A stretch of 49,649 nt of DNA, from positions 1-49,649 of the forward strand of contig NZ_RRCH01000027.1 of the NCBI RefSeq assembly GCF_003862495.1, given 5' to 3'. The stretch's first letter is position 1; every line of letters begins with the position of its first letter. The notes beneath the pieces are model-generated. The model ran no database searches. It had not been told where the DNA came from and was given only the letters and a program-made list of their open reading frames with translations. The stretch comes from Halocatena pleomorpha (GTDB lineage Archaea > Halobacteriota > Halobacteria > Halobacteriales > Haloarculaceae). Positions 41,401 to 49,039 of the stretch are shown piece after piece. Both the position numbers and the translations under genes were made by a program.

Positions 41401-42672
41401 TTACTTCAGTTTTTCGAGTTGGCTATCGCGGAGGACGGATTTCAGAACGATATCCGTATCCTGAACGAGGCGATGCTCGAGATAGCTGCCTTGTCCTCGT
41501 CCGCCACCTGTTCGGGTCGATTCAACGACACCGAGAAACGCCTGCTCTTTGAGGAGTTCGTACACACGATGCTCGCTGAGCGTTTTCGTGCCGAGAGTGT
41601 CAGCGATCTCCGTGTAGTGATCGTAGATGTGGCTCGTCGAAAACTCGTCGTCTTTGTTATTCTCGGTAAGGAGCGCCAGTGCGTACAGGATGAATTTCAC
41701 TTGCGTCGTCGATCCTCGAAGCAACTCTTCGAAGCGGTCGATCTCTGCCCATTCTTGAGCGTCTCTCACGTGTTCTTCACGGATCTTGTCTGCGTTCTGC
41801 CGTTCGGCTAGTTCTCCAGCATGGCGCAAAATTTCGATCGCCTTCCGAGCGTCGCCGTGTTCTTGGGCTGCGAACGCGGCGGTGAGCGGGATCACATCGT
41901 CGGTGATGACGCTATCATGAAAAGCGTCACGACGATGGTTCATGATTTCACGGAGCTGGTTTGCGTCGTAGGGTTGGAAAACGAATTCCTCCTCGCGGAG
42001 ACTACTTTTGACGCGTTCATTCAGCTCGTTGTGGTATTCGATTTTGTTGCTGATCGCAATGATCCCGAGATGGCAGTCCGCTTTTCCGGATTCACGGGCG
42101 CGGGAGAGTTGCATTAGTACGTCATCGTTTTCGAGACGGTCGACCTCGTCAAGGATGATCACGACCGCATTGTATCGCTGATCGAGTATATCCCACAGAT
42201 AGTCGTAATACTCTCCACTTCCGATGCCAGATCGAGGAATATCGAACCCAGTTATGTCCGGATCGTTCACCGCACGGGTGATCGAGCGAGCGACGCGGGT
42301 TTGGGTGTTATGCTGAGCACAATCAACGTACACCATCCCGACAGACGCTCCTTGGGCTTCTGCAGCACGCTTTGCTCGTTCGGTAACATGGCGGGCGACT
42401 AGGGATTTCCCGGTCCCAGTTTTCCCGTAGATCATGACGTTGTTCGGTGGCTGATCCTGAACGATAGGCCGGAGTTCAGCAGCGACCGCTTCGATCTCGT
42501 CATCCCGACCAACGATACGAGCACTCTCTGGCACGTGGCCGACCTTAAGAAGTTCCTTTCGATTAAAGATATGAGTGTGAGAGGGATCACCGTCGAAATT
42601 GAACAGGGGATCTTTAGACGGGTCTTCAAACCGGTCGTCGAAGTCGGAAAGTCGAGGAGGATCGTCGACCAT
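41401..42672 (-). CDS. orc1: Orc1/Cdc6-type replication initiator
   Basis: This 423-residue protein is an AAA+ ATPase with Walker A GKTGTGKS (83-90), Walker B VVIILDEVDRLEND (about 170), sensor 1 IAISNKIEYHNELN and sensor 2 GDARKAIEILRHAGELA. A C-terminal winged helix (about 320-400) would contact the origin boxes. Such initiators bind origin recognition boxes and load the MCM helicase. The start codon faces the origin (42710-43874), as in most archaeal orc1/oriC pairs, and the nearest origin box begins 38 bases before the start, so it may regulate its own gene. Confidence 0.95.
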   Translation of the reverse strand: MVDDPPRLSDFDDRFEDPSKDPLFNFDGDPSHTHIFNRKELLKVGHVPESARIVGRDDEIEAVAAELRPIVQDQPPNNVMIYGKTGTGKSLVARHVTERAKRAAEAQGASVGMVYVDCAQHNTQTRVARSITRAVNDPDITGFDIPRSGIGSGEYYDYLWDILDQRYNAVVIILDEVDRLENDDVLMQLSRARESGKADCHLGIIAISNKIEYHNELNERVKSSLREEEFVFQPYDANQLREIMNHRRDAFHDSVITDDVIPLTAAFAAQEHGDARKAIEILRHAGELAERQNADKIREEHVRDAQEWAEIDRFEELLRGSTTQVKFILYALALLTENNKDDEFSTSHIYDHYTEIADTLGTKTLSEHRVYELLKEQAFLGVVESTRTGGGRGQGSYLEHRLVQDTDIVLKSVLRDSQLEKLK

Positions 42673-42709
42673 GTATATCCAATGCAGTGGAGGGAGTTTA
42701 CTTAGGTTT

Positions 42710-42934
42710 ATCCCTCCCCAGAAAGAGTGTATCTCTCCGGTTCACGCTGACGTAACAACGTCGTACGAGCCGTATCACATCTGTGACTGATGAACCGAGA
42801 ACAGAATGTATCGCGTGTCCCCATCGGATCACTCCTATGGCAGCTCGTTACTCGTAGAGAGACCCACCCCCGATCAAGAGTGTATCGTCGTTTGGTCTAC
42901 CTCACCAACCCCCCCACCCCTGATCAAGAGTGTA
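42710..42934 (-). repeat. Three origin recognition boxes, orc1 side
   Basis: Boxes at 42710-42733 (weakest), 42862-42884 and 42906-42934 read, on the minus strand, TACACTCTTnnnnnGGGG followed by a G-rich string. The second and third carry TTGATC in the core; the first has TTTCT. They point toward orc1. Confidence 0.85.
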
Positions 42935-43116
42935 AGTGTTCATAGGGGGGGTGGCTCCAGTTGAGAACGGGGACGTGGTTCTCGAAACTGCTATAGAACT
43001 CGGTTAGAAGTGATATAATAGTAGAAATAGATATTTACTGGACGGTAGCGTTTCGATAGGAACGAGAACGGATCAACCGTTCTCTTCTTTCACGGTTTAC
43101 TTAATGGACTGTTCTC
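42797..43116. repeat. Six copies of GAGAAC/GTTCTC within the origin
   Basis: The hexamer occurs at 42797, 42963, 42978 (reverse), 43064, 43079 (reverse) and 43111 (reverse). The extended form is close to CGAGAACRG. Two pairs make inverted repeats: 42963-42983 with a 9-base spacer, and 43064-43084 with 8-base arms and a 5-base loop. None occurs on the far side of the unwinding region. Confidence 0.65.
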
Positions 43117-43520
43117 GTTTACTGTTTATAAATATTTTGTTCTACTGCTGTTACTTGCTGCTGTTACATACTAGACGTTCGTCTAGATGTTGTTTCACTA
43201 TGCTAGTTTGCTAGCTGTTCTAGCTAGCTGTTCCACTATCTAATGATTATTAACTTAATAGTTACTAATTATATAATAATTAATTATTAATTATTATAAT
43301 TAATACATAGCTAATAATGTAGATGTGAGTGTTAGACTATTGGTTATGAATAGATACTTCATTAGAACAACAATTAACTAGTGTACGGATTTTTTATGCT
43401 GTATATAATGTAGTATATAGTTTTGTGCTGTGTATAACGTTGTATGTGAATATGGGTATGTGGATATAGGTATATGGATATAAATTATTTTCTAATTTTC
43501 GGTGGAGTGTTAACTGTATT
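43117..43520. other. AT-rich duplex-unwinding region of the origin
   Basis: The 400 bases are strongly AT-rich with long A/T-only runs (43240-43310), where AATAATTAATTATT is itself palindromic, and with near-tandem TATGGGTATGTGGATATAGG-like units at 43450-43483. The composition contrasts sharply with the flanking boxes. This is the expected site of strand opening. Confidence 0.75.
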
Positions 43521-43628
43521 TGGCGATATTCATGGTATGTCTGCTTCAGCGTAGTCAGTAGTGGCTCAATCGGTAGTCGGTCAACGTCATCTACAGTTCG
43601 CTCGGAACCTCACGCCTTCCTCTCTGGT

Positions 43629-43874
43629 TTACACTCTTGGCGAGGGGTGGGTGGGTGAAGCCTCCGATAATCACTGGATGTGTAGCGAAATGCAGGACCC
43701 CCTCCGAACAGATACACTCTTGATCAGGGGTGGGTGGGTGGAAGTGGTAGGATAATGAATAGGTTTGGATGACTGCTTCAACCCCTCCAACGAGTGCTTA
43801 CACTCTTGACGAGGGGCGGGGGAGGGGGTTGACAGACGGCTGCGAGCACTTTCACTCTTGATCAGGGGTGAGGG
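43629..43874 (+). repeat. Four origin recognition boxes, far side
   Basis: Boxes are at 43629-43657, 43713-43741, 43798-43828 and 43850-43874 on the plus strand, all of the form ACACTCTTGnnnnGGGG plus G-string (the fourth has TTCACTCTTG). Boxes one and three have GCGA or ACGA in the variable core; two and four have ATCA. Spacing is 84, 85 and 52 bases, so they are not a tandem array. Confidence 0.88.
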
Positions 43875-43984: not shown

Positions 43985-45703
43985 ATGCCAAACGAGAGAC
44001 ACATGTACGACGAGGATGACCTCGAGACCATCCGCAACGCTCACGACGTGTGGGAGGAGGATACGCTCGATCCGGTGCTCGATTCTTATGGCGAGCGCCA
44101 CGATCGATTCGCAACCGTCTCGAATCACGAGGTAAACCGGCTGTACACGCCGACTGATGTAGCCGATCTCGACTACGAAGAGGATCTCGGTATGCCTGGT
44201 GAGCCCCCGTACACGCGTGGACCGTATCCGACGATGTACCGCGGCCGGACGTGGACGATGCGCCAGTTTGCTGGGTTCGGAACCGCCGAGGAAACCAACG
44301 AGCGCTTTCACTACCTTATCGAGGAAGGGCAAACTGGTCTTTCGACCGCCTTTGATATGCCTTCCTTGATGGGAATTGACTCTGACCATCCAATGAGTGA
44401 AGGTGAAGTGGGTACGGAGGGCGTCGCCGTCGACACACTCGCAGACATGGAAGTGTTGTTCGATGGTATCGACATCGGTGAGGTGTCTACCTCTTTCACA
44501 ATCAATCCGAGTGCTGCAGTGATCTACGCGATGTACGTCGCGCTTGCCGATCAACAGGATGTCCCTCGCAACCAGATCAACGGCACCCTTCAGAACGACA
44601 TGCTCAAAGAGTTTATCGCCCAGAAGGAATGGGTGATTCCACCCGAACCGTCGTTGGACGTGGTAACTGACACCATAGAATTCGCGGTCAATCAGACACC
44701 GAAATTCCATCCGGTATCGATTTCAGGCTATCACATCCGAGAAGCCGGCTCGACGGCCGCTCAGGAGGCTGCTTTCACCCTCGCTGACGGCTTCGCCTAC
44801 GTCGAAGACTGCTTGGACCGGGGCCTCGATATCGACGCATTTGCGCCTCTCTTCTCGTTTTTCTTTAATTCGCACAACTCTCTCTTCGAGGAGGTAGCGA
44901 AGTTTCGTGCGAGCCGGCGCATTTACGCACGAATCATGGACGAGTGGTACGACGCACAAGCTGATGAAGCGAAGCGGCTAAAGTTCCATACTCAGACGGC
45001 CGGACAATCGTTGACCGCTCAACAGCCAATGAACAACATCGCTCGGGTAACGATACAAGCTCTCGCGGGTGTCCTTGGTGGAACCCAGTCGCTACACACC
45101 AATTCCTTTGACGAGGCGCTTGCACTTCCATCCGAGAAAGCCGTTCGGGTCGCGTTGCGCACCCAGCAGATCATCGCTGAGGAATCGGGCGCGGCCGACA
45201 TCGTTGATCCGCTCGGGGGCAGTTTCGCCGTCGAAGCGCTCACCGACGAATTGGAAACCGAAATCATGGATTACATTGAGGAAATCAGAGCGAAAGGGGA
45301 TGGTTCCGTTCGCAGAGGTGTTCTCTCCGGAATCGACGACGGCTACTTTCACCGAGAGATTCAGGACTCCTCGTATGAGTATCAACAGCGCGTTGATGCA
45401 GGCGAGGAGACGGTCGTCGGTGTCAATGAATATGAAATTGAGGAAGACACGTCTGTCGATATCCTCACCGTAGATGAGAGCGCTGAACAAGCGCAACTCG
45501 AACGCCTCGAACGAGTCAAACGCGAACGGGACGACCAGGCAGTTGCAATTTCCCTCACGGCCCTATCAGACGCTATCGAATCGGATGAGAACGTAATGCC
45601 GTACATCATCGACGCCGTGAAAACTTATGCCACGATGGGTGAAATCATGGGCGTTTTCGAGGATCAGTACGGATCATATCAGGAGACACCTGTGACAGCG
45701 TAA
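43985..45703 (+). CDS. Methylmalonyl-CoA mutase large subunit (substrate-binding domain)
   Basis: This 572-residue protein has MYRGRTWTMRQFAGFGTAEE near residue 80, the signature TAFDMPSLMGIDSDHP, VSISGYHIREAGSTAAQE and KFHTQTAGQSLTAQQPMNN, as in archaeal mutase alpha chains. It ends at about the point where the B12-binding domain would begin, so the cobalamin subunit must be encoded elsewhere, the usual archaeal split. The enzyme interconverts methylmalonyl-CoA and succinyl-CoA in the cytoplasm. A TATA-like run (43946-43958) lies 27-39 bases before the ATG, just beyond the last origin box. Confidence 0.95.
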   Translation: MPNERHMYDEDDLETIRNAHDVWEEDTLDPVLDSYGERHDRFATVSNHEVNRLYTPTDVADLDYEEDLGMPGEPPYTRGPYPTMYRGRTWTMRQFAGFGTAEETNERFHYLIEEGQTGLSTAFDMPSLMGIDSDHPMSEGEVGTEGVAVDTLADMEVLFDGIDIGEVSTSFTINPSAAVIYAMYVALADQQDVPRNQINGTLQNDMLKEFIAQKEWVIPPEPSLDVVTDTIEFAVNQTPKFHPVSISGYHIREAGSTAAQEAAFTLADGFAYVEDCLDRGLDIDAFAPLFSFFFNSHNSLFEEVAKFRASRRIYARIMDEWYDAQADEAKRLKFHTQTAGQSLTAQQPMNNIARVTIQALAGVLGGTQSLHTNSFDEALALPSEKAVRVALRTQQIIAEESGAADIVDPLGGSFAVEALTDELETEIMDYIEEIRAKGDGSVRRGVLSGIDDGYFHREIQDSSYEYQQRVDAGEETVVGVNEYEIEEDTSVDILTVDESAEQAQLERLERVKRERDDQAVAISLTALSDAIESDENVMPYIIDAVKTYATMGEIMGVFEDQYGSYQETPVTA

Positions 45704-46516: not shown

Positions 46517-46865
46517 GTGCATTGTATGGGGGACGTGATATGTGATTGGGGCTCCTCTGGTTGTGAATCGTCTCAGGATCAAGTGTCCTTTGCTAAATTC
46601 ATGCATCTTGATCTTAAACGAGATCGAAATCGGTTGGGTGACTATGGGAGCAATCGGGACGCTGCTCTGATATGCAGAGGAAGGAGGCACTGTAACACTG
46701 GGGGTTCAATTTAGAACGATGGTGGGTGAATACGCCACAATCGTCGTTCTGAACGGATTCTCTGGGTCGGGTGTGTTTCATTTGGATACTGTCACATCCC
46801 GGCCACTGATTACTGGTGAAGAGCTTTCGTTGATCTCGAACGCATCGGAACTCCTGATTGATTGA
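46517..46865 (+). pseudogene. Frameshifted small gene directly before the CHAT protease gene
   Basis: Two overlapping frames join into one sensible protein if a single base near 46670 is skipped: the first part ends HLDLKRDRNRLGDYGSNRDAAL and the second continues YAEEGGTVTLGVQFRTMVG and EYATIVVLNGFSGSGVFHLD, ending SNASELLID and a stop at 46863-46865. The result is about 115 residues. The second part could also be made alone from ATG 46719 (48 residues). The stop is 14 bases before the CHAT start, so the two probably formed one operon. Family not recognised. Confidence 0.5.
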
Positions 46866-46879
46866 TTCTCGATTTGATC

Positions 46880-49039
46880 ATGAGTCTTCCCACCTCCTGT
46901 GGTGACATTCGCGTTGATGTGTCTCGAAACCCACCAGCACTCGAACTGACCGACGATATTCAGGGTGTCTCTGCCACGCTTCCAACGAGTCACGTTCCAA
47001 ATCCTATACAATGCTCAACAGATATGTTTCTTTTTCCAGTGGAAGTAGCCTATGAGTTGGTCCCGCTCGTCCTCTGGACCGGAAAGCTCCATCCAGTTGC
47101 AGTACGTGATTCTGACGGATCGATAGTCGCAGAGATCAAAGATGACGAGTCAGATTTTCTCCCAGCTGGACGGTACACGATCGATATAATGTCGATAGAG
47201 ATGAAGGTGTATCTGCTCGTCGACGGTCCGGTGGCGATCCGTTCGGAATCAGATCGAGGGCGGATCATCGACTGTTCAGCAGCCAAGACCGTTCAGCTCG
47301 GTTTACGGTCCTTTCACGAGTTACCAACTGCCACAGTAACGACGACGGATCGGCCCTACGATGTGATGCGCGCGTTCTCGTGTCTCGGTTCAGCACTCAA
47401 AACCACCTCCTGCGAACGGTCGTTTCCAACGCTGCGTGGTCATCCACCGCTGTTCGAGCGTGGTAGTCGTTTTCAGGCACCTGCAAATCTCGAACGGACT
47501 GAAGAGACGGCTAGTATTCGTATTGAAGTCCCACCGACGCTTGAATCCATCTACCCAATCGCGCCGCTTGCTTACTATCTGAACGCCGTCGTTCGTCCTG
47601 GTGATACTCCCCGGATCGTCACTACTGATACCACTTATCCACTTGACCGGGGTGATGGACTGGAAACTGGTGCGGCACGACTTCTCAAACGCACCTTCAC
47701 GCTCGATTGTATCACTCGAACAGAAGGTTTTTATCCGTTCCCACTCGGAGAGCGGGTGACACTAGAACAGCGATTGCTTGATGCCGGAATTGAAGTCGAC
47801 TTCTCTGCTCTCTATGAGCAGACGCTGGTCGAACGAGTGAACGAATACATCTCGATTCCGTTCGGTCTCTTGGAGGATCTCGTACCCCGCTGGCCGCTTA
47901 CTGCCGACGTTCGCCCATTAGGGAAACACATTCCGTTTTTACCGTTCGTCGTCCAGAGCCTCGGGACAGTACGATGTCTTCCGTTGAGTTGTCAACGATT
48001 GACAAGCCCAGTCTCGCCGGCAATCGAGGAGTTCTGTCGACAAACACCAAACAGAGATGAATCTTCTATACAGAATGAGGAAGATGAGTCGGCAGTCGAG
48101 CGGGGTTTTCCTCGGTCGTCAGAAGACGCTGATATTCCAACGGACATTTACACTCCCCCAGAGACCGACAGTGTCACCCAACTCTGGCTCGCTGATGGCT
48201 ATCCACTTCAGGGGGCAAAGCCGACAATCGACGCGCTCAAACGCAGGTTCGAGACGGCCACCGTTGATGAATACGAAGTAGCTGTCGTCAGCAACGACAC
48301 TGCGATGCGTGCTGAGTCAGATGTCACCGATCTGTACGGACAGAGAGAACAAATATCGTTTGATGTGACTATGTACGAAGAGTTAGCACGTTCGGAGCTT
48401 CGAGACGTATTTACGAAGAGCTACGATCTCGTTCACTACATCGGTCACGTCGATGTGGAGGGTCTTCTGTGTTCTGATGGGTGGTTGGACGCTCACACGC
48501 TTGAGTGGGTTGCGACACGTATGTTCGTGCTCAACGGTTGTCGGTCCTATGTTCAGGGTCGAGCCCTCGTCGATGCTGGTGCGAACGGTGGGATGTGTAC
48601 GCTCTCTAACGTCGCCAATACGGCAGCCACCCGTATTGGGCGCACTGTAGCTCGTCTCCTCAACGCGGGATTCACGCTAGGTGGTGTACTCGAACTTATT
48701 AACGAGGCGTCTCTCATCGGGCAGCAGTATATGATCGTCGGTGATCCTAGCACGGCTGTCGTTTGGAATCCACAGGACTCTCCACGACTCGTAGATCTTA
48801 CTTCGACGTCGGACGCGGACACCTTCACTGCAGACCTCCAAACCTACGCAGCGAATCAATCACGGATCGGATCGCTTTATCTACCCTCCGTCGTGGACAA
48901 CGACATGTATTATATCAGCAGTAGTAATATAACTGAATTCACAGTTTCCGAGTCGACAGCCATAGAATTCTTGCAGGAAGATCGGTTTCCTGTTCGGATT
49001 GACGGATCACTGGAGTGGGATGATTCGGTTGAACTGTAG
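46880..49039 (+). CDS. CHAT-domain (caspase-like) putative protease
   Basis: This protein has 719 residues from ATG 46880. The C-terminal part (about residues 430-660) is a CHAT domain: VTQLWLADGYPLQGAKPTID, DLVHYIGHVDVEGLL with catalytic His523, and FVLNGCRSYVQGRAL with Cys554, then GANGGMCTLSNVANTAATRIG and MIVGDPSTAVV. The His-Cys dyad of caspase-like proteases is therefore intact. The first 430 residues are a beta-rich region of unknown type with neither TPR repeats nor a signal. CHAT proteases in other systems are triggered by partner proteins and cut specific targets, for example with type III-E CRISPR effectors. No such effector is encoded here; the broken gene just upstream is the only close neighbour. 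Confidence 0.85.
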   Translation: MSLPTSCGDIRVDVSRNPPALELTDDIQGVSATLPTSHVPNPIQCSTDMFLFPVEVAYELVPLVLWTGKLHPVAVRDSDGSIVAEIKDDESDFLPAGRYTIDIMSIEMKVYLLVDGPVAIRSESDRGRIIDCSAAKTVQLGLRSFHELPTATVTTTDRPYDVMRAFSCLGSALKTTSCERSFPTLRGHPPLFERGSRFQAPANLERTEETASIRIEVPPTLESIYPIAPLAYYLNAVVRPGDTPRIVTTDTTYPLDRGDGLETGAARLLKRTFTLDCITRTEGFYPFPLGERVTLEQRLLDAGIEVDFSALYEQTLVERVNEYISIPFGLLEDLVPRWPLTADVRPLGKHIPFLPFVVQSLGTVRCLPLSCQRLTSPVSPAIEEFCRQTPNRDESSIQNEEDESAVERGFPRSSEDADIPTDIYTPPETDSVTQLWLADGYPLQGAKPTIDALKRRFETATVDEYEVAVVSNDTAMRAESDVTDLYGQREQISFDVTMYEELARSELRDVFTKSYDLVHYIGHVDVEGLLCSDGWLDAHTLEWVATRMFVLNGCRSYVQGRALVDAGANGGMCTLSNVANTAATRIGRTVARLLNAGFTLGGVLELINEASLIGQQYMIVGDPSTAVVWNPQDSPRLVDLTSTSDADTFTADLQTYAANQSRIGSLYLPSVVDNDMYYISSSNITEFTVSESTAIEFLQEDRFPVRIDGSLEWDDSVEL

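Follow-up and report, generated by a model that had tools for sequence, protein, structure and literature searches.

Replication origins next to an orc/cdc6 gene in haloarchaea are described, in the accessible portions of a comparative study, as sets of Orc-specific boxes that end in a G-string and stand in opposite orientations around AT-rich DNA on the upstream side of orc, the box family tracking the Orc family (Wu et al., 2012, PMC3528665). For oriC1 and oriC2 of Haloarcula hispanica, the available part of a later study reports that the G-string is essential, that two inverted boxes are the minimal set, and that extra boxes modulate the initiator (Wu et al., 2014, PMC3936714). In oriC1 of Sulfolobus a conserved non-ORB element (ucm, bound by UBP) lies between the inverted innermost boxes and, according to the text available, possibly gives the origin its polarity, a possible asymmetry that this work raised without settling (Dhanaraju et al., 2025, PMC12141716). 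Whether archaeal origins possess a direction, and whether it needs to match the initiator gene, is an open question in the field. Origin gain, loss and disruption in archaea have also been described, and the words 'inversion' and 'inverted' are absent from the accessible text on origin gain and loss (PMC4441112). Likewise, titles and abstract beginnings of the literature on archaeal origin inversion and asymmetry, a set that leaves most subscription papers uncovered, mention no origin flipped within its locus. The putative origin described here is of a known kind and has an unusual history: its layout and its Orc-specific box family are those of the haloarchaeal origins cited above, whereas its flipped state, its one-way mid-origin element and its promoter-fixed box were not found in the accessible portions of Wu et al. 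(2012).

The window, i.e. the whole stretch of 49,649 nucleotides that was analysed, is contig C20 of a 61-contig, 3.65-Mb genome of Halocatena pleomorpha. The region of interest is located between an orc1/cdc6 initiator gene on the minus strand (41401..42672) and a methylmalonyl-CoA mutase family gene on the plus strand (43985..45703; PF01642, 7e-212), the latter being a conserved far-side neighbour that is also found in Halocatena salina. The initiator of 423 amino acids comprises AAA+, Cdc6 lid and winged-helix domains (Pfam Cdc6_lid 9e-25, Cdc6_C 3e-20), and the solved structures most related to it are 2v1u and 2qby. The box pattern CACTCTTGNNNNGGGG has exactly six matches in the window, all within 42867-43868, compared to 0.00 expected from 100 dinucleotide shuffles, and in the whole genome (3.65 Mb) it has seven, the seventh standing alone in contig C37 without a G-rich tail. 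Two of the six boxes point left (pattern positions 42867 and 42917) and four point right (43632, 43715, 43801 and 43853). With their full extent, the left-pointing pair on the minus strand consists of the outer box at 42865..42884 (core ATCG) and the orc-side innermost box at 42915..42934 (ATCA), and the plus-strand arm of the mutase-side innermost box at 43630..43649 (GCGA), two further boxes at 43713..43732 (ATCA) and 43799..43818 (ACGA), and the outermost box at 43851..43870 (ATCA). A seventh, promoter-proximal box on the minus strand (42712..42731) is degenerate in core and G-string; as ACACTCTTTCTGGGGAG at 42714-42730 it has one mismatch to the relaxed pattern, belongs to neither core type and carries a broken G-string. 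A first-pass annotation of this DNA had described seven boxes, three pointing one way and four the other, around an AT-rich region, and this arrangement is indeed present beside the orc1/cdc6 gene, including the exact far-side order of cores (CGA, ATCA, CGA, ATCA; in full GCGA, ATCA, ACGA, ATCA). The box form that it took to be shared by all seven holds for six of them, or five if the leading A is required, and fails in the third left-pointing box; CACTCTTGnnnnGGGG is common to the same number, six of seven, with 0 expected in shuffles. The AT-rich region between the arms is real as well, the putative unwinding region (43000..43549) having a GC content of 0.17-0.39 in 100-base windows.

The closest orthologues of the window Orc were found on chromosome 2 of Actinarchaeum halophilum (96% identity), in YIM A00010 (97%) and in YIM A00013 (95%). 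The Halocatena salina orthologue (97.9%) lies on the 532,509-base plasmid unnamed1, where PhoX, glycosyltransferase, orc and mutase genes are the same neighbours as in the window, and in the orc tree these two are sisters with support of 100/99. The Actinarchaeum replicon that carries the orthologous orc is, in the accessible part of its description, a minor chromosome (PMC10067837). A wider group of Orc proteins with 77-84% identity is spread over many haloarchaeal genera, encoded on megaplasmids and contigs. Our comparison covered 31 related origins, each oriented by its own orc gene. It included 15 of the 27 plasmid records listed at no less than 77% identity; same-genome duplicates (L107-L110, L117, L119, L160), pattern-match regions with fewer than two boxes (L095, L102-L106) and a chance match (L159) were left out. 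The distant orc group L122-L158 (49-54%) was excluded from the box counts, and the one-sided origins L116 and L171 from the counts of innermost boxes and of the mid-origin element. The box family of the window was present in 31/31 of these origins, each time beside an orthologous orc, and in its own genome it is private to the locus, which supports the first-pass view of an origin with a cognate, origin-specific Orc1. The distances from one box to the next group around 46, 60, 84 and 90 bp, and no helical phasing at 10.5 bp was found (R 0.09; 99 spacings from the 31 origins). In many of the relatives at about 80% identity (L100, L101, L111, L114, L164-L166) the sequence TGTCTGCCGTGCGTCAGAC is conserved after one orc-side box; no such stretch was noticed next to the boxes found in the window's genus.

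Since the cores on the far side alternate, the first-pass annotation had suggested that they might position initiators of two kinds or affinities. Across the 31 origins, 185 boxes (at most two mismatches, promoter boxes excluded) carry 23 different cores, with ACGA in 98, ATCA in 14, ATGA in 12, ACCA in 11, ACGG in 8 and others in the remainder. In a set of 149 boxes from 20 origins, promoter boxes included, the information content per position is 1.4-2.0 bits in the CACTC half and the G-string and 0.7-1.2 bits in the four-base core. The ACGA core is favoured at innermost boxes (48/58, compared to 50/127 of the other boxes; p 3e-8), and G/T tails are longer there (p 1e-14), both p values being too small because the boxes are partly homologous. 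It is conceivable, albeit unlikely, that the boxes form two functional classes, an ATC-type and a CGA-type, distinguished by the state of the one Orc that binds them or by a clearly different affinity, and that their alternation has been selected; the innermost-box bias would agree with this. Perfect alternation is indeed seen in the window arm and in Halocatena salina, and in 7/30 of all arms with at least three boxes. In addition, core positions 2 and 3 are coupled, both over all boxes (CG 113, CC 15, TG 15, TC 21; p 3.5e-8) and within the genus (p 5e-5), as two types would predict, a result whose weight is lowered, in our own judgement, by the non-independence of homologous boxes. However, an arm of four boxes, two of each kind, is expected to alternate in one third of its possible orders, as counted by permutation, and several of the alternating arms come from sister origins; with these weighed, alternation was near chance, and selection for it was rejected. 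Moreover, outside the genus the coupling is absent among TTG boxes (p 0.73; p 1.0 for the non-innermost ones), while the non-innermost boxes of every kind give p 0.02 there. Finally, close relatives swap type at homologous boxes, so that core types do not keep their place: the ATCA box at 42915 corresponds to an ACGA box in YIM A00010, the ACGA box at 43799 to an ACTA box, and the homologous arm of YIM A00010 reads ACGA, ATCA, ACTA, ACTG. The box at 42915 is at the same time the homologue of the relatives' opposite-side innermost box, which is strictly nCGn. Judged over the whole family, the core is best described as a tolerant spacer with a preference, neither a free N4 nor two fixed words, and the two core types look like variation within one site family instead of two kinds of site. 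Apparent core types in a single origin can, accordingly, be drift within such a spacer. Of the two first-pass suggestions, initiators of two kinds find no support, while two affinities are plausible in so far as the ACGA bias of the innermost boxes favours some gradient of affinity by box place.

The region shares with the haloarchaeal Orc1/Cdc6-ORB origins an orc1/cdc6 neighbour that encodes AAA+ and winged-helix domains, multiple inverted G-string boxes around AT-rich DNA, and boxes that are specific to the linked Orc family. We consider it highly probable that the intergenic region serves as the Orc1/Cdc6-dependent origin, with its module inverted, of a secondary replicon belonging to a haloarchaeon of the Halocatena/Actinarchaeum group. 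The GC skew of the complete Halocatena salina replicon is weak, with a minimum at 482.5 kb and the origin at about 28 kb on a low plateau, and is only weakly compatible with an origin at the orc locus. A box array can also have another role, and the accessible part of the Haloarcula hispanica study describes ORB-rich non-origin regions that titrate Cdc6E (Wu et al., 2014, PMC3936714). That the array studied here is such a titrating or regulatory region for the Orc, and not a working origin, is nevertheless very unlikely, since haloarchaeal origins are laid out in this way, with inverted boxes around AT-rich DNA directly upstream of orc (Wu et al., 2012, PMC3528665, accessible portions), and this layout recurs on many megaplasmids. 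As far as the available text goes, Haloarcula hispanica also differs from the window in its box sequence and in the titrating array of oriC2, which lies downstream of cdc6 (PMC3936714). Among our relatives, Haladaptatus sp. DYF46 (L116) has boxes downstream of orc too, and its upstream set is one-sided; its origin may have been relocated across the gene.

In the alignment of the window with YIM A00010 the flanking genes are collinear, whereas about 1 kb of origin aligns in inverted orientation only. Counted from the orc start codon, the collinear flanks extend from -1700 to -1250 (86% over 451 positions) and from -143 into orc (87% over 244 positions). The interior contains opposite-strand matches at window positions -1150..-1033, -294..-191 and -464..-352 (120, 104 and 113 positions; E 1.7e-18, 2.5e-16 and 5e-6), and its plus-strand matches are repeated boxes. 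Halocatena salina is collinear with the window in two segments (337/422 and 239/292 aligned bases) and inverted relative to YIM A00010 over 275 positions. Masking of boxes and tails left an inverted local score against YIM A00010 of 47 for the window (direct 23, shuffled maximum 28) and of 54 for Halocatena salina (direct 25, shuffled maximum 25). Masked inverted scores against Actinarchaeum were marginal, reaching 27 for the window with L091 (shuffled maximum 31) and 32 with L093 (31), and 31 and 36, respectively, for Halocatena salina (30 in both cases); the masked direct alignment of YIM A00010 with Actinarchaeum did not exceed shuffles either (27 vs 29; 23 vs 25). The inverted segment runs approximately from outermost box to outermost box (42865..43870), with collinearity of the flanks resuming at about 42815 and 43922, so that its ends lie within some tens of bases of these boxes. 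The putative origin as a whole has thus been turned round in place, while the flanking genes have not moved. A shared assembly error is unlikely because the Halocatena salina replicon is complete and comes from a separate record.

The distribution of the boxes follows the same pattern. The window and Halocatena salina have four boxes on the mutase side and two on the orc side, whereas the other 27 two-sided origins have 1-2 boxes on the distal (mutase) side and 3-6 on the orc side. This range of 3-6 boxes illustrates how easily relatives gain and lose them, and independent gains and losses on each side could in principle have produced the present arms without any inversion. Moreover, one spacing misfits a simple flip, since the spacing at the outermost box is 52 and 49 bases here, compared to 87 in YIM A00010, which calls for one more change, of about 36 bases. 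Such a history is nonetheless highly improbable because sequence outside the boxes is inverted too, including a mid-origin element together with its distance of 165-166 bp. As the outermost boxes are themselves inverted repeats, we infer that the inversion arose by recombination between them. Recombination between inner boxes, considered from spacing alone, was set aside, as in our own reading a flip at the outermost boxes agrees better with the sequences between the boxes.

The mid-origin element was first seen as AGTCCATT and then widened to AAGTSCATTNA; in the window it reads CAGTCCATTAA (9 of 10; 43101..43111, minus strand) and lies 166 bp from the orc-side innermost box. In 17/27 non-inverted two-sided origins the minus strand carries it 155-225 bp inward of the distal innermost box, and in the element-bearing origins it stands 165-221 bp from one innermost box. 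The window and Halocatena salina qualify only when flipped, with distances of 166 and 165 bp, respectively, compared to 165 bp in YIM A00010. After flipping these two, 19/29 origins carry the element, whereas 300 permuted motifs averaged 0.1 and reached at most 4, a control that flatters the motif because it was drawn from the same origins, some of which are close kin. The stricter first spelling has weak single-origin significance in many origins, and a full (10-of-10) match to AAGTSCATTNA occurred in 0/37 more distant orc loci. In these 19/29 origins a conserved non-ORB element consequently lies between the innermost inverted boxes, like ucm in Sulfolobus oriC1 (Dhanaraju et al., 2025, PMC12141716, in the part available), the likeness being one of place only. 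Because the one-way element reads in the ancestral way only after the window and Halocatena salina are flipped, the flipped state of the putative origin is the derived one, placed on the branch leading to these two species, and the orientation of YIM A00010 is ancestral. We see an even chance that the origin is an asymmetric directional module, inverted as a unit between its outermost boxes without the initiator gene or the promoter box, and, taken jointly with this, that its order is an innermost consensus box, the one-way element 165-221 bp inside, AT-rich DNA and a multi-box arm. Near the element, the window contains an inverted repeat with perfect 8-bp arms (GAGAACGG-ATCAA-CCGTTCTC; 43064..43084), and an inverted repeat with other arms is found at the inverted homologous place in YIM A00010.

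The seventh box did not take part in the inversion. In 31/31 origins a box at this place starts 54-65 bases upstream of the orc start codon, its TACACTCT half being intact and its G-string usually broken, and in most of these origins a TATA-like stretch (e.g. ATTAAGTA) follows. In the window the corresponding TATA-like element of the orc promoter is CCTAAGTAAA (42697..42706, minus strand, 25-34 bases before the start codon), which we take to be a TATA/BRE by the rules of haloarchaeal promoters. The promoter box of both the window and Halocatena salina stayed outside the flipped segment, and its position could let Orc throttle its own gene.

These observations suggest a working model in which the adjacent Orc, as one kind of initiator, would bind all boxes, with specificity coming from the invariant CACTCT..G half and the G-string. 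The four bases in between (mostly A, C/T, G/C, A/G) would be a tolerant spacer whose drift gives the impression of two types. Innermost boxes, with consensus core and long G/T tail, would bind strongly and direct the helicase to the AT-rich region, while weaker outer boxes might add to or titrate the initiator, and orc could be feedback-regulated through the box at its promoter. In the ancestor shared by the window species and Halocatena salina the module between the outermost boxes was inverted, which placed the four-box arm next to the mutase gene and the two-box arm next to orc. The origin consequently appears to be a self-contained module with an internal polarity that is not bound to that of its initiator gene. 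If this is true, the locus represents a natural experiment showing that the origin itself, and not the genes next to it, determines the direction of the module, including its ucm-like element. Two flipped sister species and close relatives in the ancestral state offer a ready comparison, the conserved one-way element is a specific target for mutation, and, with Orc proteins 95-98% identical within the group, the same initiator family would serve either orientation, provided that the origin is active.

The genome encodes 16 Cdc6_lid genes. A simple scan for repeated 12-mers at the other 15 orc loci revealed clear boxes at nine and none at six. The boxes of the nine loci differ from those of the window; one of them, TTCCAGTTGAAACGAAGGGG, resembles the classical oriC1 box. 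Matched against the window origin, the boxes of these nine loci gave nothing beyond shuffled sequence, the closest, from L086 (Orc 49% identical), reaching 13/18 and tying the shuffled maximum, and in this comparison the box family of the window proved private to the window Orc. That a second Orc of the genome shares the origin, with one Orc per core type, is barely credible: the 16 initiator genes, the TTACACTCT-GAT half that the L089 boxes share with the ATC-type, and a Sulfolobus pair of Orc proteins solved together (2qby chains A and B) speak for it, but no box of the nine loci rose above shuffles, cores swap at homologous boxes, the L089 box matches the window origin at 10/16 at most with its string on the other strand and of C instead of G, and in Haloarcula hispanica the origins require their own cdc6 (PMC3936714, accessible part). 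The L089 locus itself (C21:226000-232500) carries boxes TTACACTCTGATnCCCC at 1985, 2331, 3682 and 3724 that are kept in three relatives and combine an ACACTCT half, as in the window boxes, with a C-string. Downstream of the mutase gene, the window also contains a 725-aa open frame without Pfam match (46862-49039), and Halocatena salina has a hypothetical protein of similar size in a similar place.
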